Source: Aquamicrobium lusatiense
Lineage (GTDB): Bacteria > Pseudomonadota > Alphaproteobacteria > Rhizobiales > Rhizobiaceae
NCBI RefSeq assembly: GCF_014201615.1
Contig: NZ_JACHEU010000001.1
Coordinates: 1,321,631-1,385,630 of the forward strand
Length of the DNA stretch: 64,000 nucleotides
Reading direction: 5' to 3'
Position 1 is the first letter of the stretch. The number at the start of each line of letters is the position of its first letter. Positions 10,811-25,253 of this stretch are shown here, piece after piece. Below the pieces are notes generated by a model. It saw only the letters and a program-made list of their open reading frames with translations, was not told the DNA's origin and did not search any database. The position numbers and the translations under genes are program-made.

Positions 10811-11338
10811 GATACCGCCTCGCGAGTAGATGTGTGGTGTTATGAGGATATCGGAGCTTTACGATTTGCCTAAGAGCTGTGTCCATATCGGCTGATATTT
10901 GAGCGCTGGGGTCGAAACTCAAACAAGCTTGCGTGTGCTGCAAGCGTCTGACTCCCTGCCGTCCGAAGGTTTTCAGGCGGATGCGGGAAGGATTGCCCTG
11001 CCGCCCATCGCCCGGCAGCGGCTGAGCGACGAAAATCCATGCGTTGAGCGATGATCGTAGCCGGCCCGGCGTTTTCGCCCTGACATCCGGGAAATACTCA
11101 TGATCTCTCCGACGAAACGGTGCTGTTGGAGGGGATGGCGCGGGCCGGCTGCTGGCCGGTGCCTGCAAAAGGCGTCATCAGCTCGCATAGTTCTGAAGCA
11201 AGCCCAGGCATTTCTGCAAAGCCGCCCTGAGCCGTGAGAGAGTACTCACAGCCTTCATGGGCCCGTACCTTCCTTGTGTCGTGACTGGGACGCGATAAAC
11301 ACAGGCGGAATCTAAAGCGGGGCCATGGCACCAGGAGT
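10811..11338. other. Non-coding stretch upstream of the TRAP operon
   Basis: No convincing gene is present. Open frames here are short, unlike any family I know and lack ribosome sites. The stretch separates the start of the minus-strand LysR gene from the sigma-54 control region of the plus-strand TRAP operon, and presumably also holds the LysR gene's own promoter. Confidence 0.5.
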
Positions 11339-11368
11339 GGAGCGAAATGTTCCGGAACAATATGTTCC
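11339..11368. promoter_or_regulatory. Tandem enhancer-like sites for the sigma-54 activator
   Basis: Two abutting 15-bp elements occur here: GGAGCGAAATGTTCC (11339-11353, one mismatch in the dyad) and GGAACAATATGTTCC (11354-11368, perfect 5-bp arms with 5-bp spacer). The same element occurs as GGAACGAAATGTTCC at 16508-16522 before the second operon. The tandem pair lies about 95 bp upstream of a -24/-12 promoter, a usual distance for enhancer-binding proteins. The likely binder is the activator encoded at 23220. Confidence 0.65.
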
Positions 11369-11463
11369 TGATAAAATGTTTTGCGCATAACGGGATTGAA
11401 ACGGAAACGGACAAAAACGTTATAAGTCAAATCATTATCAGGTTCCGTCCTGATCCGCGCGAT

Positions 11464-11480
11464 TGGTATGGAACATGCTT
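11464..11480 (+). promoter_or_regulatory. Sigma-54 (-24/-12) promoter of the TRAP operon
   Basis: TGGTATGGAACATGCTT has GG at 11465-11466 and GC at 11477-11478 with exactly ten bases between, the invariant RpoN spacing. It departs from the consensus TGGCAC-N5-TTGCA at several other positions, so it is a moderate match. It lies 36 bp upstream of the first TRAP gene. Confidence 0.6.
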
Positions 11481-11516
11481 TCCCTGAAGTCATAACAAAA
11501 ACAGGGGACTGCAATC

Positions 11517-12506
11517 ATGAAGCTCAGACTTTTCCTGCCCGTGCTTGTCGCGGGAGCATTGGCCCTGATTAACGTCACGGGGGCCTCCGCTCAGACCATC
11601 AAGGTGGGCCACTCCGATAATCAGGCGCATCCCAAGCATGAGGCATTCGTCCATTTCGCCAGACTTGTGGACGAGAAATCACAGGGTCGCCTCAAGGTCG
11701 AGATCTATCCTTCCGGTCAGCTCGGGGATGAAAGAGAGCTTCTGGAATCGCTGCAGACCGGAGCTATGCATCTCACCTCCGTTTCCAACGGCGTGATGTC
11801 GGCATTCGCACCGCAATTCATGCTGCTCGACATTCCTTTCAGCTTCAGCGACAGCGAATCCGCACGACGGGCGCTCGATGGAGCACAGGACATCCTGTTC
11901 ACGGATCTGGACCGCATTGGCCTGCATGGCCTGTCGATCTGGGAGCAGGGCTTCCGGCAGGTCAGCTCCGCGAAGAAAGGTATTTCCGCGTCCGCTGACG
12001 TGCAGGGGCTGAAGCTGCGCACGATGGAAGCCCCGCTGCATGTGGAGGCTTGGCGCGCCATGGGCGCGAACCCCACGCCGATGTCCTGGGGGCAGGTCTA
12101 TTCCTCCCTTCAGACCGGCATTATCGACGGGCAGGAAAATCCGCTCTACGTGGTGACGCAGGAGAAGCTTTTCGAAGTTCAGAAATTCGTTTCCCTGACC
12201 AATCATATCTATGATGCGATGCCCGTGGTCGCCAGCGAGAGCTGGTGGTCCTCCCTCTCCGATGACGACAGAAAGCTGATCACGGATGCGATGGCCGAGG
12301 CCACTTCCTTTCAGCGCGGACTTGTCGACGCCGCGGTGGAGAAGGCACGGACGGATCTGGCGGAACTCGGGGTTGAGATCACGGAACCGCCGGCCGACCA
12401 GATCGCCGCGCTGAAGGCGCAGGCACAGCCGCCGGTTATCTCCAGAATCCGCGACACACTGGGAGACGCGCCTGTCGATGCTTGGCTGGCTGTCATCGCT
12501 GAATAG
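11517..12506 (+). CDS. TRAP transporter solute-binding protein, DctP family
   Basis: This is the periplasmic binding protein of a TRAP importer, 329 residues, with a Sec signal peptide (residues 1-25, cleavage after GASA). Family hallmarks are the PSGQLGDERELLESLQTG segment and LKLRTMEAP, whose Arg clamps the ligand's carboxylate in characterised DctP proteins. The ligand is therefore probably an organic acid. The gene is the first of an operon and has a candidate sigma-54 promoter 36 bp upstream and tandem activator sites further up. The small and large membrane subunits follow within 12 bp and 4 bp. Confidence 0.93.
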   Translation: MKLRLFLPVLVAGALALINVTGASAQTIKVGHSDNQAHPKHEAFVHFARLVDEKSQGRLKVEIYPSGQLGDERELLESLQTGAMHLTSVSNGVMSAFAPQFMLLDIPFSFSDSESARRALDGAQDILFTDLDRIGLHGLSIWEQGFRQVSSAKKGISASADVQGLKLRTMEAPLHVEAWRAMGANPTPMSWGQVYSSLQTGIIDGQENPLYVVTQEKLFEVQKFVSLTNHIYDAMPVVASESWWSSLSDDDRKLITDAMAEATSFQRGLVDAAVEKARTDLAELGVEITEPPADQIAALKAQAQPPVISRIRDTLGDAPVDAWLAVIAE

Positions 12507-12518
12507 CCGGGCAAAGCC

Positions 12519-12989
12519 ATGACATCGCGGCGCGAACAATTTGTACAGCTTGCGCAAGGGCTGGTCTATCTGGTTCTGGCCCTTCCGGTTGCGCTTCTCT
12601 CCCTCATCCTCATCGCTCAGGTCGTCTTCAGATACGGCCTGAATTCCTCGCTGTACTGGAGCGAGGAGCTCTCCAGATACATACTTGTTCTGATAACCTT
12701 CATCGGGTCCTTGTATCTGCTGCAGCAGGACAGCCTGACCACCATTGAACTCGGCGTACGCTCCCGTGCGCGCAGTGTCCTGGGGCGGGCGATTGCTTTT
12801 GCGCCAACGCTGCTGTTCTTCGGCCTGCTCGGGTGGTCGGCTTTCTCGCTGATTTCCCGCACAGCCAGTCAGAAATCGATCGCCCTCGGCCTGCCCATGT
12901 GGCTGGTCTACTCACCGATGCTGGCCTGCGGAGTGGGAGGAGCACTGATCGTGCTCCTCAAGATCCTCCTGCCGAACACCCCGAGATAA
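12519..12989 (+). CDS. TRAP transporter small permease, DctQ family
   Basis: This is the four-helix small membrane subunit of the TRAP importer, 156 residues. Hydrophobic segments lie at about 17-37, 50-67, 90-110 and 128-150, and the WSEELSRYILV segment is the conserved DctQ pattern. It sits between the binding protein and the large permease, with 12 and 4 bp spacing, so it is translated from the same message. Confidence 0.92.
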   Translation: MTSRREQFVQLAQGLVYLVLALPVALLSLILIAQVVFRYGLNSSLYWSEELSRYILVLITFIGSLYLLQQDSLTTIELGVRSRARSVLGRAIAFAPTLLFFGLLGWSAFSLISRTASQKSIALGLPMWLVYSPMLACGVGGALIVLLKILLPNTPR

Positions 12990-12993
12990 AATC

Positions 12994-14274
12994 ATGTCCC
13001 TCAGCCTGATCGTACTGGGGGCACTGTTCGTGCTCCTGCTGTTTCGCAACGTTCCTCTGATCGTTGCGATAGGTCTTCCCTGTGTTGTCTACATTCTGAT
13101 GGAGGGCCTGCCCATCTCGCTGTTTGCCCAGCGTCTGTTCACGGGCATCGATATCTTCCTGTTGCTGGCAATCCCGCTCTTCGCCTTTGCCGGCGAGATC
13201 ATGAACCAGGCCACCCTGACGGACAGGCTGGTGGCCTTCGCGCAATCTCTTGTCGGCCGCCTGCGGGGCGGGCTGGCCGCGGTGAACGTACTGTCCAGCA
13301 TGTTCTTTTCAGGCATTACGGGCAGTGGCGCGGCCGATGTCTCGGCAACGGGCTCGCTGCTCATTCCGATGATGAAAAGGGCGGGATATTCTGCGGAATT
13401 CAGCGCGGCGCTGACCGCGATCTCCGCAATCATCGGGCCGATCATTCCGCCAAGCATCGTTCTCATCATGTATGGCTCTCTGTCGGGCACTTCGGTGGCG
13501 AGCCTGTTCATGGCAGGCATCGTGCCGGGACTTCTGATGAGCTGCGCCCATTTCGCAATGGCGGTTACGCTTTCCTACCGTCGCGGCTATCCGGCGGGAG
13601 AAGCCACGAGCATCCGGCGCATCGCCGAAACGGGCATTTCCGCCCTGCCTGCGCTTACCGTGCCGGCCATCATCATGGGGGCGATCGTCTTCGGCATCAC
13701 CACCCCGACCGAGGCCAGTGCGCTTGCGGTGCTGCTGGCGATCGTGCTGGGCTCGCTGGTTTACAAGACCCTGACATGGTCCAAACTCTCCTCCAGCGCT
13801 TTCAGAGTTGGATCGGAAATGGCCGACACGATGCTCATCATCGGCGTTTCCAATCTGCTTGCGTGGATACTGGCCGTGGAACGGGTGCCGGTCATACTGG
13901 CGGATGCCGTACTCGGCATTACCACCGATCCCGTGTTCGTGCTGTTGCTCATCAACCTGATACTTCTGATCGTGGGCATGTTCCTGGACACGTTTCCCGC
14001 CCTCATCATCCTCACTTCCGTGCTGCTGCCGCTGGCGCAATCGGTGGGCGTCGATCCCATCCATTTCGGCATCATCATTTCCCTGAACCTGATGATCGGT
14101 GCCGTGACGCCGCCGGTGGGCATTCTGCTGTTCATCAGCACCCGCATCGCGCGCGCCAATGTCTTGGCAACGGTGAAGGAAACGCTGCCTTTCATCGGCG
14201 TGTCCCTCATCGTGCAGCTTATAGTTACCTTCACGCCCGCGATATCGTCGGGAGTGGCTTCACTTATCGACTGA
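12994..14274 (+). CDS. TRAP transporter large permease, DctM family
   Basis: This is the twelve-helix sodium-driven transport subunit, 426 residues, the standard DctM length. Conserved segments include FSGITGSGAADVSATGSLLIPMM and AIIGPIIPPSIVLIMYG, which line the transport site in the family, and the later ITPTEASALAV repeat. It completes a full P-Q-M set with the two upstream genes. The HAD hydrolase gene begins 95 bp further down on the same strand. Confidence 0.94.
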   Translation: MSLSLIVLGALFVLLLFRNVPLIVAIGLPCVVYILMEGLPISLFAQRLFTGIDIFLLLAIPLFAFAGEIMNQATLTDRLVAFAQSLVGRLRGGLAAVNVLSSMFFSGITGSGAADVSATGSLLIPMMKRAGYSAEFSAALTAISAIIGPIIPPSIVLIMYGSLSGTSVASLFMAGIVPGLLMSCAHFAMAVTLSYRRGYPAGEATSIRRIAETGISALPALTVPAIIMGAIVFGITTPTEASALAVLLAIVLGSLVYKTLTWSKLSSSAFRVGSEMADTMLIIGVSNLLAWILAVERVPVILADAVLGITTDPVFVLLLINLILLIVGMFLDTFPALIILTSVLLPLAQSVGVDPIHFGIIISLNLMIGAVTPPVGILLFISTRIARANVLATVKETLPFIGVSLIVQLIVTFTPAISSGVASLID

Positions 14275-14369
14275 CCGACACCACGGATGCAGGCCAGCGC
14301 GCCGCATCCACAGCGAACGGGGAACTGGAATTGTCTGACACTGAACTTGGCCAGGACGGGAGCAAAAAA

Positions 14370-15056
14370 ATGGATTGGGTCAAAGCGATAACGTTCGATT
14401 TCTGGGGGACGCTGGTGGATGTCGACAGCAGCGGCGAGACCGGAATGGCGAGGGTCATGGAACGGACAGGCCTTTCCGGCATGTCGTCGCGGGAGCTTTA
14501 TCTGAAGTGGGATTTCGCGACGGTCCGCAGATACAGATCCGACGTCTGGCGACCCTATGTGCAATGGGGAGCACTTGCGCTCCGCGATGTTCTGGAGCCG
14601 CTCGGCGTCTCGCTGAGCGATGCGGAATTCGCCGAAAACGCGGAACTGCTGATTTCGACGATGACTTCACAGGCAAAGCCGCATCCTGAGGTTCCGGCGG
14701 TCATTGCCGCTCTGAAACGACGCTATCCGCTGATGCCCATCACCAACATGGATGACCGCCTGTTCGCGATGAACCCGTTCCGGGCCGAATTCGACCAGTA
14801 TCTGACGGCTGAGGATGCGGGAGCCTTCAAGCCTTCGGCTATCATTTTCGGCAAAGCCATCGAGCGGCTTGGGGCGCCGGCGCAGTCCATTCTGCACGTC
14901 TCCCTGGCTCAGTTTGCCGATCTGGAGGGGGCCATGCCGATGGGCATGAAGGTCGCGTGGATCAATCGCGGCGGCGAGGCGCTCGGGCCCTTCACGCCAC
15001 GTCCGCTTTTCGAGTTCAGCGATCTTAAGGGGCTGGGTGAACTGTTTGCAGTCTGA
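14370..15056 (+). CDS. HAD-superfamily hydrolase, type II haloacid dehalogenase-like
   Basis: This is a HAD-fold hydrolase of 228 residues. I start it at the ATG at 14370 (MDWVKAITFDFWGTLVD), with a GGGAG site upstream. Motif I is DFWGTL: the nucleophilic Asp is present, but the acid/base Asp usual two residues later in phosphatases is Trp. Type II 2-haloacid dehalogenases likewise lack that second Asp (DxYGTL). Motif II (PITNMDD), the Lys of motif III (GAFKPS) and a late SLAQFADLEGAMPMGM segment follow. It lies between a TRAP importer and a Liv-type binding protein in the putative sigma-54 operon. Dehalogenase activity is possible but unproven; other substrates are conceivable. Confidence 0.75.
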   Translation: MDWVKAITFDFWGTLVDVDSSGETGMARVMERTGLSGMSSRELYLKWDFATVRRYRSDVWRPYVQWGALALRDVLEPLGVSLSDAEFAENAELLISTMTSQAKPHPEVPAVIAALKRRYPLMPITNMDDRLFAMNPFRAEFDQYLTAEDAGAFKPSAIIFGKAIERLGAPAQSILHVSLAQFADLEGAMPMGMKVAWINRGGEALGPFTPRPLFEFSDLKGLGELFAV

Positions 15057-15114
15057 GGCGGCCATCGCCTGACGCAAGGTGCCGGCTGCGGCCGGCAAAA
15101 AACGGGAGGAAAAC

Positions 15115-16215
15115 ATGTCGTGGTTATTGAGAGCCGCAGCACTCGCTGCGGGGCTGGGTCTTTGCGCGCCTGTTGCACAGGCCGACACCAGGCTGGTCGT
15201 TGTCGGCCCTATGTCCGGTCAGTTTGCCAATTACTGGCCTCAGGTCGAGAGCGCCGGCAAGGCAGCAGCGGCGGAGGTCAACGAGAATGGCGGGATCATG
15301 GGAGAGCGGCTCGTCGTTGACTTCGCCGACGACGCCTGTGACCCGAGACAGGCCGTTTCGGTGGCAAACCGCAATGTGCAGCAAGGCTACACTGCCGTGA
15401 TCGGGCACTTCTGTTCCGGCAGCTCGCTGGCCGCCTCGGACGTCTATGACGAGGAAGGGGTGCTGATGATTTCAGGAGCTTCCGTCAACTCCGCCCTGAC
15501 CGACCGTGGCATGGCCCACGTCTTCCGCACGGTCGGGCGTGACGACCAGCAGGGAGAGGTTGCGGCCGCCGCAATTCTGGCGGAAGGGAAGGACAGGAAG
15601 GTTGCTCTGGTGCATGACAAGTCAGCCTTCGGCAAAGGTCTTGTCGACCAGACGAAAACCTATCTCGCGCAGGGCGGCCTCGCCCCCTCCTTCGAGGATT
15701 CCATCACTGCCGGAGAAAACGACTACTCGGCGCTCGTCACCCGCATCGTCACGCATGGGGCGGACGTGATCTATTTCGGCGGTTATCATCGCGAAGGCGG
15801 GCTGCTGATCCGACAGGCCAGAGAAGCCGGATTTACCGGAACCTTCATCAGCGGCGATGGCATCAAGGCGCAGGAATTCGCAACGATTGCAGGAGCCGCG
15901 GCAGATGGCGTGCTTCTGACCTTCTTCCCCGATGCGCGCGAGAACAGGGAAGCAGCTCCCGCGCTCGAACGGCTCACCGCGATGGGGTCGAGCGGCGACG
16001 GTTTCACGCTCTACATCTATGCGGCAATTCAGGCCTATGCGAATGCGGCAAATGCCGCCGGAAGCACCGATACCGAAGCCGTGGCGAAACAATTGCGCGC
16101 CGTGACCGTGCCGACAGTCGTGGGAGATCTCAGGTTCAACGAAAAAGGCGATGTCGATCGCAATCTCTACCGGCTTTATAAATGGCAGGGCGGCAGCATC
16201 ACCGTCGTCGACTGA
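15115..16215 (+). CDS. Liv-type (branched-chain amino acid class) ABC binding protein
   Basis: This is a periplasmic binding protein of the LivK/LivJ class, 366 residues. The start at 15115 follows a GGGAGGAAAAC ribosome site and opens a Sec signal peptide (MSWLLRAAALAAG, cleavage after AQA). The mature protein shows the family pattern VGPMSGQFANYWPQVESAGKAAAAEVNENGGI and later GHFCSGSSLAASDVYDEEGV. No Liv permease or ATPase lies in this operon; LivHMGF are in the next operon (19241-23209), which has no binding protein. The two halves probably form one importer. Relatives transport amino acids, amides, urea or aromatic acids. Confidence 0.92.
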   Translation: MSWLLRAAALAAGLGLCAPVAQADTRLVVVGPMSGQFANYWPQVESAGKAAAAEVNENGGIMGERLVVDFADDACDPRQAVSVANRNVQQGYTAVIGHFCSGSSLAASDVYDEEGVLMISGASVNSALTDRGMAHVFRTVGRDDQQGEVAAAAILAEGKDRKVALVHDKSAFGKGLVDQTKTYLAQGGLAPSFEDSITAGENDYSALVTRIVTHGADVIYFGGYHREGGLLIRQAREAGFTGTFISGDGIKAQEFATIAGAAADGVLLTFFPDARENREAAPALERLTAMGSSGDGFTLYIYAAIQAYANAANAAGSTDTEAVAKQLRAVTVPTVVGDLRFNEKGDVDRNLYRLYKWQGGSITVVD

Positions 16216-16290
16216 ACCGCATCGTCCGGTAATGCCGGGCTTCTGAAAGACGTGTGCCGGACAGTATAAGGCGCATATCCCCTTTGCAGG

Positions 16291-16340
16291 ATGCCCGGAC
16301 CAGCGTGAGCCTGAGATATGGCCCCGACTGGTCCGGGCAT
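16291..16340. terminator. Strong inverted repeat after the Liv binding-protein gene
   Basis: Perfect 13-bp arms, ATGCCCGGACCAG (16291-16303) and CTGGTCCGGGCAT (16328-16340), flank a 24-base loop 75 bp after the stop codon. It could end the first operon's transcript. The following bases (TGCTGTTTCC) are only weakly T-rich, so a processing site or protein-binding site is an alternative. Confidence 0.45.
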
Positions 16341-16507
16341 TGCTGTTTCCAGCTCTGCCCACGACAAGATGCCCGGCGAGGCCAGGCGGACCTTAAGCGG
16401 AAATGTTTCATCCAGAATCTTGCGTATCATTGCCGGCAGCAAGCGGGCGCTTTCGTTCCGTGCAGCCGTCTTCTTCAGCTTTTCATCCGGGTGACTATCG
16501 CATGAAC

Positions 16508-16522
16508 GGAACGAAATGTTCC
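16508..16522. promoter_or_regulatory. Enhancer-like site for the sigma-54 activator, second operon
   Basis: GGAACGAAATGTTCC is a dyad with 5-bp arms and 5-bp spacer. It extends to ACGGAAC-N5-GTTCCGT (16506-16524), 7-bp arms. It repeats the element seen in tandem at 11339-11368. It lies about 120 bp upstream of a strong -24/-12 promoter, consistent with an upstream activating sequence. Confidence 0.68.
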
Positions 16523-16639
16523 GTATGGGATGAATTCACTCGTAATGAAATGATGGCAAAACCGCGCGGCAATAAGATGATTCAGAGAATACCATTTTAA
16601 ATCAGTATGTTGAATTCAAGTGAACCGCCTTTTCAAAAC

Positions 16640-16655
16640 TGGCCCGCTGTTTGCA
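16640..16655 (+). promoter_or_regulatory. Sigma-54 (-24/-12) promoter of the CoA/Liv operon
   Basis: TGGCCCGCTGTTTGCA matches the RpoN consensus TGGCAC-N5-TTGCA at nearly every position, with GG at 16641-16642 and GC at 16653-16654 separated by ten bases. It lies 27 bp upstream of the first start codon, preceded by the activator-type dyad at 16508. Confidence 0.75.
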
Positions 16656-16682
16656 GAGCAGGGGCAGGAAAAGGAGTTCAAA

Positions 16683-17096
16683 ATGTCCGAGCAGCTAACC
16701 CTGGGCCAGAAGGCCAGCCTTGAGAACATTGTCACGGCGGAAATGACCGCTGACCGTTTTGCCGATGGTCCCGCCGAAAAATTCCCTGCCGTTCTGGCGA
16801 CGCCCTTTCTGATCGCCGATCTCGAACGTGCCTGCGCGCTTCTGCTGACGCCGCTTCTTGAAGAGGGGCAGCTTTCGGTCGGCGCGCATATCGACGTACG
16901 CCATCTGGCGCCGACCGCCGTGGGAGGTCGTTACACGGCAACCGCAACCTTTATCGAGAACCGCTCTCCGCTGTTCTGGTTCGAGGTGGTCGCCGAAGAC
17001 TCCGCCGGCATTATCGGCAAGGGCCGCATTGCCCGCGCCATCGTCTCGGAGGCGGCGATTCTTGCGCGCGCCGATCAGTCTGTCTCCGGCAGCTAG
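16683..17096 (+). CDS. FlK-like hotdog acyl-CoA thioesterase
   Basis: This is a 137-residue hotdog-fold thioesterase resembling the fluoroacetyl-CoA thioesterase FlK of Streptomyces cattleya. Residues aligning with the FlK active site appear conserved: Thr in LATPF, Glu in DLERAC, His in VRHLAP and Arg in IARAIV. I start at the ATG at 16683, with the AAGGAG site just upstream, rather than at an upstream in-frame start. It is the first gene behind a strong sigma-54 promoter and precedes a CoA ligase and an enoyl-CoA hydratase. A housekeeping role clearing toxic or dead-end acyl-CoAs is plausible; specificity for a fluorinated substrate is not shown. Confidence 0.78.
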   Translation: MSEQLTLGQKASLENIVTAEMTADRFADGPAEKFPAVLATPFLIADLERACALLLTPLLEEGQLSVGAHIDVRHLAPTAVGGRYTATATFIENRSPLFWFEVVAEDSAGIIGKGRIARAIVSEAAILARADQSVSGS

Positions 17097-17138
17097 CCCT
17101 CACGCGCAAACAATTTCCAATCAATCAACGGCGGGATC

Positions 17139-18458
17139 ATGACAGACAATTCGCATTTCCACCCCGATGTCGAGACGCTTTCCGAAACTGACATGGCGGC
17201 CCTGCAGGCGCGCAAATGGGAGCGGCAACGTGCCTATATGGCTTCTGCTTCAGCCTTCTACGGCAGGAAGCTTGGCAGCGCACTCAATGAGAGCCTGACG
17301 CTGGACGGTCTTCAGGACCTGCCACTGACCGACAAGGAGGAGCTGCGCGCCTCTCAGGAGGACGACTATCCGTTTGGCGACTACATTGCCTGCCGGCCCG
17401 AGGGCGTGGTGCGTATTCATCGCACCTCCGGAACAACGGGGCGCGCCCTCATTCTGGCCAACAGCGCCAATGATGCGCACATCATCGCCCAGCAGGGCGC
17501 GCGCGGCATGTGGGCATCGGGGCTGCGGCCGTCCGACAGGGTGGTTCATTGCCTGAACTATCAGATGTGGACAGGCGGCGTCACGGATCACCTGACCCTT
17601 GAGGCCACCGGCGCCACGGTTCTTCCCTATGGCGTAGGCGGTGCCAGCAAGCTGATCGAGGTGATCCGTGATCTGGGCATCACCGCAATTTCCTGCACCC
17701 CGTCCTATCCGGCACTTCTGGAACGGATCGTGCGCGACGAGTACGGCCTGACCCCGCGCGATCTCGGCCTCAGGCTGGCGCTGTTCGGCGGTGAGGCGGG
17801 CCTTGATAATCTCGGTTTCCGCAAGGCCATGGAGGATGTCTGGGGTTTCGGGGTCCGCAATGCCAATTTTGGGCTGAGCGAGGTGATGAGCACCATGGGC
17901 AGCCAGTGCGAGCACACCACCGACCTTCACTTCCTCAGCAGCGACGTGGTGTTTGCGGAGCTGCTCGACCCGGCCTCCGGCCAGCGTCTGAAAATAGCGG
18001 AAGGCGTCAGCGGCGAGCTTGTCTGCACGCATCTGGAAAAGGAATGCCAACCGCTGATCCGCTATCGCACCCGCGATGTGATCACCGTCACCGGCACCGG
18101 GCCCTGCAGTTGCGGACGGACCTCGTTCCGCTTTCGCGTCAGCGGCCGCACCGATGACATGTTCAACGTGCGGGGCGTGAACGTCTTTCCGTCCGCCATA
18201 CACAAGGTGATCGCCGCCGCGGGTGACATGGCCTCGGGTCATTTCAGGATCATGCTGGCCGGACCCGGCCCCTATGACCGCATTGCGATCAAAGCTGAGG
18301 CCGCCGCCGGCCTTGCGAGCGAGGACTGGGCAAGCGTCACCGCCGAACTGGAAAAGCGGGTACGCGACACCGTAGGGGCCAGCGCCACAATCGAGATGGT
18401 GCCGTTTGAAAGCCTGCCCCGCACAGACGGCAAGACTTCGCTGGTGGAAAGGATCTGA
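17139..18458 (+). CDS. PaaK-like aryl/acyl-CoA ligase
   Basis: This is an adenylate-forming CoA ligase of the phenylacetate-CoA ligase (PaaK) type, 439 residues, the family's usual length. The P-loop-like motif is HRTSGTTGRALI (about residues 95-106). A Cys-containing block (CSCGRTSFRFRVSGRTDDMF) and the C-terminal catalytic Lys (RTDGKTSLVERI) are present. It would activate an aromatic or other carboxylic acid to its CoA thioester in the cytoplasm. It is followed after 2 bp by an enoyl-CoA hydratase gene and preceded by the FlK-like gene. The transporters around it suggest the substrate is imported rather than made internally. Confidence 0.88.
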   Translation: MTDNSHFHPDVETLSETDMAALQARKWERQRAYMASASAFYGRKLGSALNESLTLDGLQDLPLTDKEELRASQEDDYPFGDYIACRPEGVVRIHRTSGTTGRALILANSANDAHIIAQQGARGMWASGLRPSDRVVHCLNYQMWTGGVTDHLTLEATGATVLPYGVGGASKLIEVIRDLGITAISCTPSYPALLERIVRDEYGLTPRDLGLRLALFGGEAGLDNLGFRKAMEDVWGFGVRNANFGLSEVMSTMGSQCEHTTDLHFLSSDVVFAELLDPASGQRLKIAEGVSGELVCTHLEKECQPLIRYRTRDVITVTGTGPCSCGRTSFRFRVSGRTDDMFNVRGVNVFPSAIHKVIAAAGDMASGHFRIMLAGPGPYDRIAIKAEAAAGLASEDWASVTAELEKRVRDTVGASATIEMVPFESLPRTDGKTSLVERI

Positions 18459-18460
18459 CC

Positions 18461-19219
18461 ATGTCGTTCGTCGATTTCAGGAAACAGGGCCATATCGGGA
18501 CGGTGACGCTGAACCGCCCGGATCGGCTCAATGCCATTTCCACCACGCTGGCGTCGGATCTGCATGATGCGCTGTTCGCCGTCTCCGCCGATCCGGATAT
18601 CCGCGTCATCGTGCTCAGCGGCGAAGGCCGCGCCTTCTGCGCAGGCGACGATCTCAAGGAGTTCGATCTGCAAACGGCCAGCGATGCGGCAACGGTTCGC
18701 CATATCGAGGCGATCCAGCGCATCACCCGTGACCTTATGTTCTGCGACAAGCTCGTCGTTGGAGCAGTTCATGGTTTCGCGGTCGGCGGCGGCTTCGAGT
18801 GGATGCTCAACTGCGATCTGATCGTGGCCTCTGAAGATCTGGTGGCGTTTTTCCCCGAAACGGAATGGGGACAGTTCCCCACGGGCGGGGTGACGCATCT
18901 GCTGCCGCAGGCCATCGGCTACCAGCAGGCAATGGAGCTTCTGGTTCTGGGCGAGCGGCAGACCGCGCAGGCCCTTCTGCATCGCGGGCTGGTGAACTGG
19001 GTGGTCCGGCGCGAGGACATGATGGCCAAAGCCCTCGAAGTCGCCGGCGTCGCGGCGGCCAAATCGCCGTTTTCGGTCTCGCGCCTGAAGCGCCTGCTCA
19101 CCCGGGATATTTCGGGCGGGCTCGGACGCGCCTTGGATCTGGAGGAGACGATCACCATCAAGGCCTTCAAAACGCCGGAAGCGCGAGCGCGGTCCTCCAA
19201 CTTCCCCACCAAGAACTAG
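18461..19219 (+). CDS. Enoyl-CoA hydratase/isomerase family protein
   Basis: This is a crotonase-fold enzyme, 252 residues. The oxyanion-hole segment GRAFCAGDDLKEF (about residues 57-69) is followed by VHGFAVGGGFEWMLNCD, whose Glu matches the first catalytic Glu of hydratases. The second Glu position is kept in FFPETEWG, although the usual GxxPGxGGTQRL is changed to GQFPTGGVTHLL. Hydration or isomerisation of an enoyl-CoA is expected. The gene sits 2 bp after the CoA ligase and 21 bp before LivH, tying the enzymology to the importer. Confidence 0.88.
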   Translation: MSFVDFRKQGHIGTVTLNRPDRLNAISTTLASDLHDALFAVSADPDIRVIVLSGEGRAFCAGDDLKEFDLQTASDAATVRHIEAIQRITRDLMFCDKLVVGAVHGFAVGGGFEWMLNCDLIVASEDLVAFFPETEWGQFPTGGVTHLLPQAIGYQQAMELLVLGERQTAQALLHRGLVNWVVRREDMMAKALEVAGVAAAKSPFSVSRLKRLLTRDISGGLGRALDLEETITIKAFKTPEARARSSNFPTKN

Positions 19220-19240
19220 CCGGCCAAGGGAGGAGGAACC

Positions 19241-20158
19241 ATGGAGTATTTCGCGCAGCAAGTGCTGAACGGACTGACGATCGGCAGCGTTTATGGGCTG
19301 ATCGCAGTGGGTTACACGATGGTCTACGGCATCGTGGGCATGATCAATTTCGCGCATGGCGAAATTTATATGATCGGAGCATTCGTCGGCGTGATCGTGC
19401 TGACGGTTCTGGGCTCTCTTGGCATAACCTTCGTGCCGCTGCTGATTGCAGTGGCGCTGATCGCCTCGATCGTGATCACCTCGGTCTACGGTTATACGCT
19501 TGAAAAGGTTGCCTATAGGCCGCTGCGCGGCTCCACCCGCCTCGCCGCGCTGATTTCGGCGATCGGCATGTCGATCTTCCTGCAGAACTTCGTTCTTCTG
19601 GTGCAGGGCGCACGGGTCAAATCCGTGCCGCAGCTGATCACTGAGCGCCATGTCCTCTATGACGGGGGTCCCGGCGCCATGGTCACCGTTACCAACAGCC
19701 AGCTCCTGATCATGGGGGTGGCCGCCGTGGTGATGCTCGCATTCGGCTTCCTGGTCGCAAAGACGCCTCTTGGCCGGTCGCAGAGAGCCTGCGCTCAGGA
19801 CAAGGTGATGGCAGCCTATCTCGGCGTGCAGGTGGATCGCACCATTGCCACCACATTCGTTCTGGGCGCGGCCCTCGCAGCCGTCGCCGGCGTTCTCGTC
19901 AGCCTCTATTACGGCGTGGTCGATTTCTTTGTCGGCTTCGTTGCCGGCATCAAGGCGTTTACCGCTGCGGTTCTGGGAGGAATCGGGTCGATCAAAGGCG
20001 CGTTTCTGGGCGGGATCATACTCGGTCTCGTGGAGGCTCTGTGGTCGTCCTATCTGTCCTTCGCCTACAAGGACGTGGCAGCCTTCTCGCTTCTGATCCT
20101 CATCCTGCTGGTCCGGCCGACAGGGCTGATCGGCCGCCCCGAAACCGAGAAAGTGTGA
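19241..20158 (+). CDS. livH: Liv-type ABC permease, LivH
   Basis: This is an inner-membrane permease of the branched-chain amino acid class, 305 residues, with about eight hydrophobic segments. The NGLTIGSVYGLIAVGYTMVYGIVGMINFAHGE start is diagnostic of LivH. A GGGAGGAGG ribosome site precedes the ATG at 19241. It is followed by LivM, LivG and LivF. No binding protein is in this operon; the one at 15115 is the likely partner. Confidence 0.94.
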   Translation: MEYFAQQVLNGLTIGSVYGLIAVGYTMVYGIVGMINFAHGEIYMIGAFVGVIVLTVLGSLGITFVPLLIAVALIASIVITSVYGYTLEKVAYRPLRGSTRLAALISAIGMSIFLQNFVLLVQGARVKSVPQLITERHVLYDGGPGAMVTVTNSQLLIMGVAAVVMLAFGFLVAKTPLGRSQRACAQDKVMAAYLGVQVDRTIATTFVLGAALAAVAGVLVSLYYGVVDFFVGFVAGIKAFTAAVLGGIGSIKGAFLGGIILGLVEALWSSYLSFAYKDVAAFSLLILILLVRPTGLIGRPETEKV

Positions 20159-20166
20159 GGCCGGCC

Positions 20167-21651
20167 ATGACCGAGATCAGGAACCAGCAAGGCGGCCTGC
20201 CGTGGCGTGACGCCTTCTTCGGAAGCATCCGGGCTTTCATTCTCTCCGTAGCCATAGTTGGGATGCGGACAACGTCTGATGAAACCGGCGTCCTGTGGAT
20301 CGACTACAAGCCGTGGGATGTCGTCACCATCGTTGCCACCGTGTTCGTGGTGCGGCTTCTGCTGCCCTCAGCGCGCGGCGCGCACAGCCTGCTTGTCGGG
20401 CTGGCCGCGCTGGTGTCGGTGTTCGCGATCATCGGCTATGCGCGGCACTTCGGGGAAATCCAGTTCGCCACCTTTCTGGTGGCCGGACTTGTGCTCAGTG
20501 TAGCCGGCTTCGCCTCGGTTGCGGCCGCAAACGAAAGAATGCGAACCCTGCTCACCCCGGCGAGCCAGCCGGTGACGGCGGGAGCCCTTGCCAGACGCGC
20601 GTCCCGGAACCGCGGTCTGGTGCTGCTTGGCCTTGCCGCCGCCGTGCTCTTTCCCTTCTTCCCGTTCGCCGACCGCTACTGGCTCGATCTGGCGATCCTC
20701 ATCCTGACCTATCTGGTTTTGGGATGGGGGCTGAACATCGTTGTCGGGCTCGCCGGCCTCCTCGATCTGGGTTTCGTCGCATTTTACGCGGTGGGCGCCT
20801 ATGCCTATGCGCTGCTTGCCATCCATCTGGATGTGAGCTTCTGGCTGGCGCTGCCGCTGGCGGCACTGCTTGCTGCTTTCGCCGGCTTCCTGCTTGGATT
20901 TCCGGTGTTGCGGCTACGCGGCGATTACTTCGCCATCGTCACGCTGGGCTTCGGCGAAATCATCCGCATCGTGCTGCTGAACTGGTCGGAAATGTCGGGC
21001 GGGCCGGATGGGCTGACCGGCGTTCCGCGTCCGTCCTTCTTCGGCATCGCGGGATTTGAGCGCAATCCATCCGAGGGCGAAACGGCGTTTCACCAACTCT
21101 TCGGCCTCGAATTCTCAACCATGCACCGCATCGTGTTTTTGTATTTCATAGTTCTGGCTCTGGCCGTTCTGGCCAGCTACGTCGCAAAGACGCTGCGACG
21201 GATGCCGATCGGCCGGGCATGGGAAGCCTTGCGTGAGGATGAGATCGCCTGCCAGGCGGTTGGCATCAGCCGGGCCAGCATCAAGCTCTGGGCGTTCATG
21301 ATCTCCGCGGCCTTCGGCGGCATGGCGGGAGCCTTCTTCGCAACGCGGCAGGGCTATGTCAGCCCGGAAAGCTTCACCTTCATCGAATCCGCCATTGTTC
21401 TGGCAATCGTGGTGCTGGGCGGCATGGGCAGCCAGCTGGGCGTGTTTCTGGCCACCCTGCTGATCATTGGCCTGCCGGAAGCTTTCCGCGAGGTCGAGCA
21501 ATACCGGATGCTCGTTTTTGGCGCAGCCATGGTGCTGGTGATGATCTGGAAACCGGGCGGGCTGCTGGCTGGCCGGGAGCCATCCGTGCGCTATGCGCAG
21601 GTGAAGAACCGTATGCGCAGGAAATTGTCAGCGCTGGAGGAAACACCGTGA
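20167..21651 (+). CDS. livM: Liv-type ABC permease, LivM
   Basis: This is the second permease subunit, 494 residues. The start at 20167 lies 8 bp after the livH stop; the upstream in-frame extension would overlap livH. The N-terminal 160 or so residues contain extra hydrophobic helices before the conserved LivM core (YLVLGWGLNIVVGLAGLLDLGFVAFYAVGAY), a longer N-terminus than E. coli LivM. The core ends with the VVLGGMGSQLGVFLA segment. It overlaps livG by 4 bp. Confidence 0.93.
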   Translation: MTEIRNQQGGLPWRDAFFGSIRAFILSVAIVGMRTTSDETGVLWIDYKPWDVVTIVATVFVVRLLLPSARGAHSLLVGLAALVSVFAIIGYARHFGEIQFATFLVAGLVLSVAGFASVAAANERMRTLLTPASQPVTAGALARRASRNRGLVLLGLAAAVLFPFFPFADRYWLDLAILILTYLVLGWGLNIVVGLAGLLDLGFVAFYAVGAYAYALLAIHLDVSFWLALPLAALLAAFAGFLLGFPVLRLRGDYFAIVTLGFGEIIRIVLLNWSEMSGGPDGLTGVPRPSFFGIAGFERNPSEGETAFHQLFGLEFSTMHRIVFLYFIVLALAVLASYVAKTLRRMPIGRAWEALREDEIACQAVGISRASIKLWAFMISAAFGGMAGAFFATRQGYVSPESFTFIESAIVLAIVVLGGMGSQLGVFLATLLIIGLPEAFREVEQYRMLVFGAAMVLVMIWKPGGLLAGREPSVRYAQVKNRMRRKLSALEETP

Positions 21652-22496
21652 GCCCGCTTCTGAAAGTTTCCGATCTTACCATGCGCTTCGGCGGGCTGAC
21701 GGCCATCGATGCTTTGAGTTTCGAGGCCGAGCAGAGAAAGATCACCTCGCTGATCGGCCCGAACGGGGCCGGCAAAACGACCGTCTTCAACTGCCTGACC
21801 GGCTTCTACCGGCCGGGCGGCGGCAGCATCAGCCTGTCGGATGACACAGGCACGCTTGAACTCACCCGCATGACCGGCCACAGGATCAATGCCCGTGGCC
21901 GGGTGGCAAGAACCTTCCAGAACATCCGGCTCTTTGCGCGCATGACGGTTCTGGAGAACCTTCTTGTCGCCCAGCATGTGTCGCTTCACCGGTCGTGGTT
22001 TCCGGCAGTGGGCGGATTGTGGAATTCAGCCGCCTACAGGCAGGCACAGGAAAAGGCGATCGACGTTGCGGCATCATGGATCGAGCGCCTCGACCTTGAG
22101 GACTGGGCCGATCAGGAAGCCGGATCGCTGCCCTACGGCCACCAGCGCCGCCTGGAGATAGCCCGCGCGATGTGTACCGGCCCCAGATTGCTTTGTCTCG
22201 ACGAACCTGCTGCCGGCCTCAATGGCGCGGAATCGGTCCAGCTTGCGAAACTTCTGGAGGAAATGCGCACCGAATTCGGCGTCGGAATCCTGCTGATCGA
22301 GCATGACATGAAAATGGTCATGGACATCTCGCACCACGTGATCGTCCTCGATTACGGCCGCAAGATTGCACAGGGCAGTCCTCAGGAAGTCCGAAACGAT
22401 CCGGCCGTTATCCGCGCCTATCTCGGCGCCGAACAGGACGACGATCTCGACGACCTTATCGGGGACGACACCACAGGCCGGGAGATTGAGGCATGA
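21648..22496 (+). CDS. livG: Liv-type ABC ATPase, LivG
   Basis: This is the first cytoplasmic ATPase of the importer, 282 residues, starting with GTG in a GTGA overlap with livM. Walker A is GPNGAGKTT (about residues 37-45), and the signature region is PYGHQRRLEIARAM, the degenerate form usual in LivG. The Walker B block is LLCLDEPAAGLN. The C-terminus ends in an Asp-rich tail (EQDDDLDDLIGDD). It overlaps livF by 4 bp. Confidence 0.94.
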   Translation: MSPLLKVSDLTMRFGGLTAIDALSFEAEQRKITSLIGPNGAGKTTVFNCLTGFYRPGGGSISLSDDTGTLELTRMTGHRINARGRVARTFQNIRLFARMTVLENLLVAQHVSLHRSWFPAVGGLWNSAAYRQAQEKAIDVAASWIERLDLEDWADQEAGSLPYGHQRRLEIARAMCTGPRLLCLDEPAAGLNGAESVQLAKLLEEMRTEFGVGILLIEHDMKMVMDISHHVIVLDYGRKIAQGSPQEVRNDPAVIRAYLGAEQDDDLDDLIGDDTTGREIEA

Positions 22497-23209
22497 CCCT
22501 GCTTTCTGTGAGAAATGTTCAGGCCTTTTACGGCGCCATCGAAGCCCTGAAGGGCGTATCGCTCGATGTGGCTCAAGGGGAGATCGTGGCGCTGATCGGC
22601 GCCAACGGCGCGGGCAAGACCACGCTGATGTCCACCATCTGCGGCAGACCGAAGCCCGGCGCCGGCACCATCTCGTTTGCCGGTGAAAACATTGCCGGGC
22701 TGGAAAGCCATGACATCGCCCGGCGCAATATAGCGATATCGCCTGAGGGGCGACGCATTTTTCCGCATATGAGCGTGACCGAAAACCTGCTGATGGGCGG
22801 GTGGCTCACCAGCAAGGCCGCGCAGCGGTCCAATCTCGACAAGGTGTTCGATCTGTTTCCCAGACTTGCGGAGCGCAGGGCACAGATGGGAGGAACCCTT
22901 TCGGGCGGCGAACAGCAGATGCTGGCCATCGGGCGCGCGCTGATGTCGGAGCCAAGGCTTTTGCTGCTGGACGAGCCTTCGCTCGGACTGGCTCCGCAGA
23001 TCGCAAAGACGATCTTTCGGACGCTGGTCGAGATCAACCGCAATCTGGGCACATCGATCCTGCTCGCCGAGCAGGACGCCTTCCATGCTCTCAGGATTTC
23101 CAGCCGGGGTTACGTCATGGTCACGGGCACCATTCATCTTTCGGGCACATCGCAGGCCCTGCTCTCGGATCCGGCCGTGAGGGCGGCATATCTGGAGGGC
23201 GGCGGTTGA
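22493..23209 (+). CDS. livF: Liv-type ABC ATPase, LivF
   Basis: This is the second ATPase, 238 residues, with Walker A GANGAGKTT, signature LSGGEQQM and Walker B LLLLDEPSLGLAP, all typical of LivF. It is the last transport gene; the sigma-54 activator gene begins 10 bp later, so the regulator is probably made from the same message. Confidence 0.94.
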   Translation: MTLLSVRNVQAFYGAIEALKGVSLDVAQGEIVALIGANGAGKTTLMSTICGRPKPGAGTISFAGENIAGLESHDIARRNIAISPEGRRIFPHMSVTENLLMGGWLTSKAAQRSNLDKVFDLFPRLAERRAQMGGTLSGGEQQMLAIGRALMSEPRLLLLDEPSLGLAPQIAKTIFRTLVEINRNLGTSILLAEQDAFHALRISSRGYVMVTGTIHLSGTSQALLSDPAVRAAYLEGGG

Positions 23210-23219
23210 CCCCCGAACA

Positions 23220-25253
23220 ATGGCGGCACAAACTCTATCGTCCGTAATATATCGTGCCGAATTCAGGAAAATGCCGGAAATGCCCGAGATACTGGAACTA
23301 CAGGCGAGGTTTCTGTCAGGCGAGCTGACGGAACTGCCGGACGGCTGTGTTTCCCGCGAGATCGGGCGCTCCTGGAAAAGGCTGCGCAGCAAGAACATAT
23401 CGCAGTCGCGAGGGTTCAGCCGGCCTGCGGACAACGCCGCGCCTGCCATGTCGGAGGCGCTTGTCCAGTCGATCAGGAAAATCGGGCCTCAGTTGCGGTC
23501 TCTGGCCGGAAACCCCGACGAATGCATCTGTGTGCTGATCGATGCCGCCGGCACGCTCGCAGCCTTCGACGGCGGCGAGGTGATTACCCGGCGGCTGGCC
23601 GGCTCGGGATGGCGCAGCGCCATGTCGTTCCTTGAGGACCATGCAGGCTCGAACGCGCTCGATCTTTGCCTGCGGGACCGTGCCCCGGCCCGGACCGGAA
23701 CGTCGGATCATACGGTAGAGGCCCTGCACGACATCGTCATCTTCGCCCATCCCCTGCTGGCGCAGAACGGAGAACCGCTGGGCGGGCTGGGGCTGCTCAT
23801 GCAGGCGGACGGCAATCCCGGCGATGCCCGTTCGGTGATCGCGATTTCGGCGATGATGCTTGAGCTGATGCTTCAGGTCGACATTTCCAACACCAATCTT
23901 GAGCGGCTGTTCGCCGAACAGAAGGCCATAGCCAACGCGATGAAGGACGGCACCATGGTCGTGAACCGGGCAGGCGTCATCGAATATATGAACCTGCCGG
24001 CCTGCCGCATCCTGAAGGTCGATCCGGAGCAGTCGATCGGCCGCCGGCTTGCCGATGTTCTGGGCTTTGAACCGGTCATCGCGCCGATTTTTGAAAGCGG
24101 CATCGGCTATTCCGACGAAGAGGTTCGCATCAGAAACGAGTTCGCGAACCTGCATCTGGTCGATACGGCCGTACCGATCAAGGACGGGGCCGGACGCGTT
24201 CTTTCTGTGGTCAACACGTTCCGGGAGTTCGGCAGCGTTGCCAGGGTCACCCAGAAATTTGGCGGCAACCAGGCCCATTACTCCTTCGACAGCATCATCG
24301 GACGCTCACCCGCCTTGCTGCACGCGGTGGCGACGGCACGCAAGGCGGCGGTCGGCTCATCGAATGTGCTCATCAATGGCGAGAGCGGAACCGGCAAGGA
24401 ACTGTTCGCGCAGGGCATTCATCTGGCGAGCGCACGTTCCGGCGGACCTTTCGTCGCCGTTAACTGTGCGGCGCTGCCGCGTGACCTCATCGAGGCCGAG
24501 CTTTTCGGCTACATGCCCGGAAGCTTCACCGGCGCGCACAAATCCGGCAGGCCGGGCAAATTCGAGATCGCCTCGGGCGGCACGATTTTTCTGGATGAGA
24601 TTTCAGAAATGCCGATGGACGTGCAGGCAAAGCTTCTGCGTGTTTTGCAGGAGCGTGAGGTGACGCGTCTCGGTGCGTCGGACCCTCTGCCGGTGGATGT
24701 CAGGGTCGTCGCGGCCCTGAACCAGAACATTCGCGACCTTGTTGCGGCCCGGCTGTTTCGTGAGGACCTGTTCTATCGCCTCAACGTGATCGAAATCACC
24801 GTTCCGGCTCTCCGGGATCGGGAAGGCGATATCCGGCTTTTGCTGCAGCATTATCTGCATCACTACGCCCACCTGCTGAAGAAGCCTGCAAAAGGCTTTG
24901 CCGAAAGGGTTCTCGATCGGCTGGAAGCCTATTCCTGGCCCGGCAATGTGCGTGAGCTTCAGAATGTCGTGGAACGCATGGTGAATTTCTCCGACGATGC
25001 TCTCATCGACAGCGATGTCGAACTCGCGGGCGAAGAGCGCGGCCATGGTTCGGCGCCCGCCGGCAACCCGGCCAGATCTGATCCGGTGCTCACGCTTGCC
25101 GAGCTTGAGCATGACGCCGTGCGAAACGCTCTTGCACTGGCGCGCTACAACGTAACCCGGGCCGCAGAACTGCTTGGCACCACCAAGCCCCGGCTCTATC
25201 GCATGATCAAGCGTCACGGCATCAGGCTGGAACGCACCGGCAGCCAGTTTTAG
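23220..25253 (+). CDS. Sigma-54-dependent activator (GAF/PAS, AAA+, Fis HTH)
   Basis: This is an enhancer-binding protein of 677 residues. An N-terminal sensory region of the DhaR/AcoR kind (about 30-220) is followed by a PAS-like segment (about 235-340), an AAA+ domain with Walker A GESGTGKE near residue 387, and a C-terminal Fis-type helix-turn-helix (about 620-668). The sigma-54 contact loop reads GSFTGA near residue 434 rather than the common GAFTGA. There is no receiver domain, so it probably senses a small molecule. It closes the second operon and is the obvious candidate to bind the GGAAC-N5-GTTCC sites before both operons. The start is uncertain; ATGs at 23271 and 23280 are alternatives. 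Confidence 0.9.
   Translation: MAAQTLSSVIYRAEFRKMPEMPEILELQARFLSGELTELPDGCVSREIGRSWKRLRSKNISQSRGFSRPADNAAPAMSEALVQSIRKIGPQLRSLAGNPDECICVLIDAAGTLAAFDGGEVITRRLAGSGWRSAMSFLEDHAGSNALDLCLRDRAPARTGTSDHTVEALHDIVIFAHPLLAQNGEPLGGLGLLMQADGNPGDARSVIAISAMMLELMLQVDISNTNLERLFAEQKAIANAMKDGTMVVNRAGVIEYMNLPACRILKVDPEQSIGRRLADVLGFEPVIAPIFESGIGYSDEEVRIRNEFANLHLVDTAVPIKDGAGRVLSVVNTFREFGSVARVTQKFGGNQAHYSFDSIIGRSPALLHAVATARKAAVGSSNVLINGESGTGKELFAQGIHLASARSGGPFVAVNCAALPRDLIEAELFGYMPGSFTGAHKSGRPGKFEIASGGTIFLDEISEMPMDVQAKLLRVLQEREVTRLGASDPLPVDVRVVAALNQNIRDLVAARLFREDLFYRLNVIEITVPALRDREGDIRLLLQHYLHHYAHLLKKPAKGFAERVLDRLEAYSWPGNVRELQNVVERMVNFSDDALIDSDVELAGEERGHGSAPAGNPARSDPVLTLAELEHDAVRNALALARYNVTRAAELLGTTKPRLYRMIKRHGIRLERTGSQF

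Follow-up and report, generated by a model that had tools for sequence, protein, structure and literature searches.

A gene for a sigma-54 activator (bacterial enhancer-binding protein, bEBP) closes the second of two neighbouring gene runs on the + strand of a 64,000-nucleotide stretch of the Aquamicrobium lusatiense genome (NCBI RefSeq assembly GCF_014201615.1, contig NZ_JACHEU010000001.1, positions 1,321,631 to 1,385,630; genome size 4.39 Mb), hereafter called the window. Run 1, dctP-dctQ-dctM-HAD-livK, spans 11517-16215, and run 2, FlK-ligase-ECH-livH-livM-livG-livF-activator (ECH, enoyl-CoA hydratase/isomerase family), spans 16683-25253. The question raised by this locus is whether the activator governs both runs, and through which DNA sites. 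Comparison with related loci makes it very probable that the activator controls both operons via 17-bp palindromes, as an autoregulated sigma-54 regulon whose ancestral three-dimer enhancer is partly eroded in the window.

A first-pass annotation had described GGAAC-N5-GTTCC palindromes, in tandem before run 1 and singly before run 2, each upstream of a -24/-12 element with GG-N10-GC spacing. Their positions and the ATGTTCC half common to all three stand; within the tandem pair the first copy has a mismatch, and a length of 17 bp describes the element better (Table 1). Both GG-N10-GC elements are present downstream of the palindromes, with gaps from the last base of the 15-bp core of 95 bp (first) and 117 bp (second). 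The activator frame is indeed the last of run 2, starting 10 bp after livF.

Arrays upstream of related loci

An alignment of 23 ligases was used to fetch 57 loci from species genomes. In many of these relatives the ligase and ECH genes occur with FlK, HAD, livK, livHMGF and a homologous activator; gene order varies and the set is rarely complete. A sigma-54 element scoring at least 20.5 of 22.5 lies within 350 bp upstream of FlK or the ligase in 36 of 52 loci. Where FlK precedes the ligase, a strong element is found 36-56 bp before FlK in 31 of 32 loci; the exception is L036 (genome G007), which is the nearest relative and has an activator 71-72% identical to that of the window. A ligase search of plasmids gave four records, of which three were fetched, and phylum and order draws added 2 and 26 genomes with more distant ligases (28 loci, L109-L136, with about 1.5 kb on each side of the ligase). 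In the genus, class and family draws, with 3-8 candidates scored per genome, the activator was found at E <=1e-130 in 2 of 146 genus genomes (own genome included), and in 1 of 385 class and 1 of 394 family genomes, both being the own genome. Close-relative footprinting thus comes down to G007/L036.

A palindromic expectation-maximization (EM) search was run on 34 upstream regions. Of these, 31 came from relatives whose locus includes an activator and a strong element, two were the window promoters, and one was the HAD promoter of L036. The search returned a 17-bp motif, CGTAAA-N5-TTTACG (CGTWAA-N5-TTWACG). For the window and for L036 it chose GGAAC-N5-GTTCC as the best match; the program had been given the window regions, but not told where their sites lie. 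The offsets of runner-up sites were mainly 15, 19 and 34 bp (18 and 33 bp in Pseudomonas), and none at such offsets was seen in the second window promoter or the L036 HAD promoter.

These offsets describe an array of three sites with two fixed, unequal steps. When 484 spacing pairs (10 to 31 bp) were scored with matrices omitting the scored clade, 19+15 came out on top overall with 25.4 (next 15.6, median -0.35). It ranked first in five of seven clades, namely Aureimonas, Azospirillum, Burkholderia, Caballeronia and the L036 lineage, while Pseudomonas favours 18+15, with 19+15 third. The L036 livK promoter had been added by hand after its 15-bp register was noticed, so the rank in L036 cannot count as independent. 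With the set reduced to a single sequence for each clade, 19+15 scored 28.5, where 300 flank shuffles reached at most 12.7. Neighbours at 15 bp have in common the CG with which the matrix ends, and as the shuffles keep the main site they retain this advantage.

Held-out loci with a strong promoter gave the same geometry, as 19+15 was first of 484 in six of seven (L042, L043, L059, L093, L137 and L138, the last two being close kin of training loci). In the seventh, L045, it ranked 326 of 484, and a run of N lies before the promoter. Nine further held-out loci have elements scoring 15.5-19.5, and there 19+15 ranks between 18 and 208; two of them, L037 and L038, have arrays elsewhere, upstream of a TRAP (tripartite ATP-independent periplasmic) transporter gene. 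In the 28 distant-ligase loci, one of which is also among the nine, (19,15) or (18,15) stands at ranks 5-281 (median 89.5). 19+15 was never first in these loci, and none of them is among the arrays listed in the array scan.

The specificity scan covered 61 loci (1.07 Mb, own rpoN locus included) in either site order at a threshold of 20. It found 48 arrays, 31 used in training and 17 not. Forty-seven lie 50-153 bp from a sigma-54 element scoring at least 20, and the remaining one (L092) lies by a 19.0 element. Mononucleotide-shuffled DNA (477 kb) contained no array above 15. Of the 38 loci where the activator match exceeds 250 bits, 36 have an array with promoter, the two misses being L036 (arrays of 17.6 and 15.4) and L093 (15.3). 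Such a pair is also present in 3 of the 23 loci without such a match (L042, L059 and L138, the last cut within the activator gene). The connection between sites and activator, which the first-pass annotation had offered as its own inference, is therefore supported by comparison; the three-site array had been missed by that annotation.

Arrays precede one gene set (FlK or ligase, HAD, livK, TRAP permease) even where the operons are split differently. The nearest mapped downstream genes are FlK, the ligase, HAD (Pseudomonas) and livK (L042, L048); about 2 kb downstream, TRAP dctM (L037, L038) and a livF-like gene (L079) are found. The reversed order (15 then 19 or 18) is found in L037, L038 and L079, and in Pseudomonas at the HAD gene.

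Individual loci show further arrangements. Reversed arrays stand at L044 8147, L046 8104, L078 8222, L037 2921 and L038 2856, before HAD or TRAP genes, and L038 resembles four sites spaced 19-15-19. Three Burkholderia loci (L050 14073, L051 11950, L085 14060) have an additional FlK-like gene behind an array, upstream of the activator, giving two array promoters per locus. In Variovorax paradoxus CP063167.1 (L093, 11519-22633) the replicon that carries the cluster measures 2.5 Mb and is listed as a plasmid. After the cluster come genes for MaoC, acyl-CoA dehydrogenase, CoA transferase and MmgE/PrpD, possibly a hint to the pathway.

The distance from the array end to -24 is about 50, 59-63, 70-75, 82, 92-94 or 101-106 bp at FlK, ligase, HAD and livK promoters. 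Reversed arrays lie 77-86 bp from the element, and the L079 array 153 bp. Phasing at 10.5 bp is only suggestive. Nine collapsed values without the window promoters gave p = 0.044 at this period and 0.14 with the period scanned, and all 18 configurations, which are partly related, gave p = 0.00025; the L036 HAD distance was entered here (as 51) one base too large. Six of 35 spacers, that of the second window promoter among them, contain a match to the consensus of integration host factor (IHF), where shuffles predict 0.31; such matches are thus not general.

Promoters of the window

The window is best read as carrying reduced arrays, with two sites at the first promoter and one strong site at the second. 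At promoter 1 the tandem sites fit sites 2 and 3, and site 1 is absent (score -14.8). The 15-bp partner, site 2, scores 6.8, a value that 0.3% of 4000 flank shuffles attain when the matrix excludes the window. At promoter 2 the strong site may be either site 1 or site 3. Taken as site 1, the array scores 17.0 with the window in the matrix and 14.8 without, and the degenerate sites at 16526 and 16541 have scores reached by 3.5% and 2.5% of flank shuffles. Taken as site 3, its partners lie at 16473 and 16492, for a total of 13.3 and shuffle frequencies of 0.45% and 26%.

By number alone the palindromes of the window are not striking: with at most one mismatch there are 4 matches against 1.84 expected, and 4 were reached in 11 of 100 shuffles. 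The count was dropped as evidence, since this form is not enriched genome-wide. It is the position relative to the promoter that departs from chance. Perfect GGAAC-N5-GTTCC occurs 13 times in the genome (6 in the reversed control), and the two window copies alone are intergenic. Each of the remaining 11 falls within an open frame (239-530 codons), and the best sigma-54 scores near them are 15.5-18.5. Perfect TGGCNCG-N4-TTGCW occurs 12 times in the 4.39 Mb (7 + 5; control 1 + 3), the second window promoter among them. A palindrome 50-250 bp upstream of a perfect promoter is expected about 0.007 times (13 x 12 x 200 / 4385838) and was observed once. The sequence GGAACNNNATGTTCC has three copies genome-wide, two of them at this locus. 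The first-pass annotation had held that a motif frequent in the genome away from RpoN promoters would speak against its proposal; on this the outcome is mixed by count and favourable by position.

The genome has rpoN in a single place (PF04552, 235.8 bits). A perfect -24/-12 match lies at C2:276782, about 1.1 kb from the rpoN match (C2:275226) and on the opposite strand.

In L036 the site before HAD, GGAACGTTATGTTCC, is followed by two -24/-12 elements that overlap, the first of them about 50 bp away; GTAACGGATTGTTCC, a GGAAC-N5-GTTCC with one mismatch, precedes livK. Among the relatives, GGAAC-N5-GTTCC at a sigma-54 element recurs in L036 only. Conservation of the exact motif, which had been proposed as a test, holds in L036, the one relative where it could be examined.

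Competing explanations and gene content

Several observations weigh against control of both operons by the neighbouring activator. No full array exists in the window, where 19+15 ranks 13 of 484. The first -24/-12 element scores only 19.0 of 22.5; scores of at least 18 are found near 41% of random positions, and of at least 20 near 3.2%. The L036 livK promoter, TGGCACGTATCCTGAA, is without GC at -12, and L036/G007 is the only other lineage in which GGAAC-type sites are readable. Genome-wide, the motif with at most one mismatch shows no enrichment, with 175 matches per strand against 226 in the reversed control.

The promoter of operon 1 is the weakest part of the case. It is conceivable, if unlikely, that only promoter 2 is sigma-54 dependent and that operon 1 is under another promoter, for instance one served by the LysR regulator encoded upstream on the other strand (9866-10810), with the palindromes there being inert or a repressor site. 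Such an arrangement would suit the weak first element. It does not explain why two palindromes stand before that element in exact 15-bp register, or why some relatives have arrays before HAD, livK or TRAP genes, and a sigma-70 scan listed no promoter before operon 1. Also against it stands the 94-bp distance to the element, 1.5 bp off the phase of the other promoters, a phase that is itself only suggestive.

That the palindromes are bound by another sigma-54 activator of the genome, such as a DctD-like protein on the TRAP genes, with the neighbouring activator acting elsewhere, seems very improbable. The genome does hold 10 matches to the activator at E <=1e-3, and TRAP/dct genes are often under other activators. 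Against this, arrays accompany this activator type in alpha-, beta- and gammaproteobacteria at the frequency given above, and the genes behind them range from FlK and ligase to HAD, livK and TRAP. That palindromes and promoter match stand together by chance, to which the modest excess in the window and the missing genome-wide enrichment might point, has a negligible probability in view of the joint position expectation, the occurrence in L036, the EM recovery and the array geometry, and is already contradicted by the spacing scan, the held-out loci and the co-occurrence with the activator.

Control of both operons by the neighbouring activator also suits the gene content (Table 1). A livK gene lies in run 1 and the matching permeases lie in run 2, so joint control of both runs would be sensible. 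Judging by the enzymes, a carboxylic acid would be imported and activated with CoA, and as the ligase is PaaK-like our guess would be an aromatic one. Open-licence papers were searched, and none was found on a pathway combining these components, which to that extent is uncharacterised.

Table 1. Features of the two operons and their upstream regions (window coordinates).
Feature	Position	Strand	Remarks
Enhancer site 2, first promoter (predicted)	17-mer 11338..11354	+	TGGAGCGAAATGTTCCG; perfect right half, degenerate left half
15-bp core of site 2	11339-11353	+	GGAGCGAAATGTTCC; 1 mismatch to GGAAC-N5-GTTCC
Enhancer site 3, first promoter (predicted)	17-mer 11353..11369	+	CGGAACAATATGTTCCT; 15 bp after site 2; chosen by palindrome EM
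15-bp core of site 3	11354-11368	+	GGAACAATATGTTCC; perfect GGAAC-N5-GTTCC
Putative -24/-12 promoter, operon 1	11464..11479	+	TGGTATGGAACATGCT; GG-N10-GC; weak, 19.0 of 22.5
DctP TRAP solute-binding protein	11517..12506	+	PF03480 1.4e-85
DctQ TRAP small permease	12519..12989	+	PF04290 9.4e-20
DctM TRAP large permease	12994..14274	+	PF06808 1.6e-111
HAD-family hydrolase, haloacid-dehalogenase type II-like	14370..15056	+	PF00702 2.4e-11; TIGR01428 101 bits, under cut-off 125
LivK-type ABC substrate-binding protein	15079..16215	+	PF13458 6.6e-52
Hairpin between operons	16293..16338	+	GCCCGGACCAG...CTGGTCCGGGC; read directly in sequence
Strong enhancer site, second promoter (predicted)	17-mer 16507..16523	+	CGGAACGAAATGTTCCG; chosen by palindrome EM
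15-bp core, second-promoter site	16508-16522	+	GGAACGAAATGTTCC; perfect GGAAC-N5-GTTCC
Degenerate sites at +19 and +34, if strong site is site 1	16526..16557	+	TGGGATGAATTCACTCG, CGTAATGAAATGATGGC
IHF-consensus match between enhancer and promoter 2	16600..16612	+	AATCAGTATGTTG
-24/-12 promoter, operon 2	16640..16655	+	TGGCCCGCTGTTTGCA; GG-N10-GC; perfect score, 22.5 of 22.5
FlK-like hotdog thioesterase	16683..17096	+	PF22636 1.9e-26
PaaK-like CoA ligase (AMP-forming)	17139..18458	+	PF14535 5e-14; TIGR02155 236 bits, under cut-off 646
Enoyl-CoA hydratase/isomerase family (ECH)	18461..19219	+	PF00378 6.2e-47
LivH-type permease	19241..20158	+	PF02653 7.4e-46
LivM-type permease	20041..21651 (listed ORF)	+	PF02653 8.1e-51
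LivG-type ATPase	21648..22496	+	PF00005, PF12399
LivF-type ATPase	22493..23209	+	PF00005 6.6e-34
Sigma-54 activator (bEBP)	23220..25253	+	PF00158 5.7e-66 (221.8 bits), PF00989, PF02954

The true start of livM probably lies inside the listed open reading frame (ORF), since this overlaps livH. The hairpin at 16293-16338 is a possible terminator of operon 1; the terminator scan did not list it, its loop exceeding the short-loop limit of that scan. The HAD-II-like hydrolase (14370-15056) and the FlK-like protein (16683-17096; fluoroacetyl-CoA thioesterase family) accompany the ligase in many proteobacterial loci; a halogenated acid is conceivable as a compound of the pathway. Long open frames lie antisense (-) to operon 2 at 18272-19651 (459 codons) and 22418-23449 (343 codons), and are probably a by-product of high G+C.

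Activator protein, proposed mechanism and known systems

The activator consists of a sensory N-terminus with PAS, an AAA+ domain and a Fis-type helix-turn-helix (HTH; PF02954 25.5 bits, cut-off 22). The Walker motifs read GESGTGKE and GGTIFLDE. The sigma-54 contact loop reads GSFTGA in place of GAFTGA, one substitution from the signature, and is invariant in 11 aligned sequences. Residues 99-320 match the DhaR structure 4lrx. A database protein carrying the name of Aquamicrobium lusatiense shares 99% identity with the activator.

The recognition region is TTKPRLYR in the window and L036 activators. Other loci mostly have SKPALYAK, with ARPTLYSK in Azospirillum, TRPTLYKK in Pseudomonas and RPTLYAK in L037, L038, L076 and L079; the region of L071 was unreadable. 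Among 10 further proteins, PRLYR is present in P0003, P0006, P0007, P0008, P0010, P0012 and P0014, and PRFYR in P0018, while P0022 and P0024 are without PRLYR; P0007 matches the L036 activator at this end. Upstream DNA within the PRLYR group is readable in the window and L036 only, where the helix difference runs parallel to that of the sites, and a link between the PRLYR helix and the GGAAC half-site is suggested.

Sites, promoters, the array geometry of relatives, the co-occurrence with the activator and the helix difference are computed results; from them we infer the following mechanism, with binding, stoichiometry and direction of change included. The N-terminus of the activator would sense a pathway substrate or intermediate, and activator dimers would bind the 17-bp palindromes upstream of both operons. 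Hexamer assembly and DNA looping, perhaps with IHF, would then lead to the opening of sigma-54 polymerase at the two -24/-12 elements, turning on dctPQM-HAD-livK and FlK-ligase-ECH-livHMGF-activator. As the last gene of operon 2, the activator would raise its own level (autoinduction). Ancestrally the enhancer would have offered places for three dimers, at steps of 19 and 15 bp. One AAA+ hexamer consists of three dimers, so the most likely role of the array is to template the assembly of the ring. A joint change of the half-site, from GTWAA to GGAAC, and of the recognition helix is probable for the lineage of the window, whose arrays are partly eroded.

We lean, with some reserve, towards regarding the array as a distinct enhancer class. 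It would be a fixed asymmetric 19+15 three-dimer layout that templates one hexamer, is phased to the promoter (about 50, 61, 72, 82, 94 and 105 bp) and is kept from Azospirillum/Aureimonas to Burkholderia/Pseudomonas, with a half-site that drifts with the helix and became GGAAC in the window branch. Such a conserved ruler with two fixed unequal steps offers a defined DNA scaffold for structures of a DNA-bound hexamer. Its natural variants (18+15, reversed order, reduced arrays) allow testing of what the spacing does. The array is also a sequence rule for finding the targets of this activator family, and the pairs of recognition helix and half-site are material for a Fis-type HTH code.

The closest precedent is NorR, likewise a bEBP with a sensory N-terminus, with three palindromic sites upstream of one -24/-12 promoter in E. 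coli norVW. In E. coli K-12 successive norVW sites (GTCA-N3-TGAC type, assigned from sequence) lie 21 and 24 bp apart, and 55 bp separate their end from the promoter. The sites studied here differ in being 17 bp long and spaced 19 and 15 bp, with two bases shared at the 15-bp step, and sensor and targets differ as well; the motif and 19+15 spacing of this activator family are not those of norVW (21+24). Three NorR sites have been described as scaffolding a higher-order oligomer (PMC2941729), which is the precedent for seeing three sites as an assembly scaffold. A 2020 review calls the influence of upstream-site binding on activator function unknown so far (PMC7175178).

In domain order and ligand-sensing N-terminus the activator resembles AcoR/DhaR/PrdR-type proteins (bEBP group 2). 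Its NCBIfam scores for PrdR (368 bits, cut-off 795) and DhaR (348 bits, cut-off 551) are both far under the curated cut-offs, and no AcoR model is among the best 25 of 30 NCBIfam matches. TyrR also has a Fis-type HTH and acts with sigma-70. Its box, TGTAAA-N6-TTTACA, has a half-site similar to the ancestral CGTWAA-N5-TTWACG. TyrR boxes are given as G-N14-C (PMC4374768), and the consensus here reads G-N13-C instead.

In Clostridiales, PrdR is reported to use TGT-ACA repeats with a 10-12-bp spacer and AcoR a distinct motif (PMC6615313). The bEBP regulons described there are small, of one operon or a handful, in many cases close to the activator gene, and have several upstream activating sequences followed by a sigma-54 promoter; in operon number, activator proximity and site/promoter layout they resemble the regulon of the window. 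The main text of that paper mentions no fixed inter-site spacing ("spacing" occurs in it 0 times), and no description of this array was found in the open-licence literature searched. A bEBP regulon is as such a known kind of system; what is new, as far as searched, is the conserved 19+15 three-site layout and the parallel difference in half-site and recognition helix.

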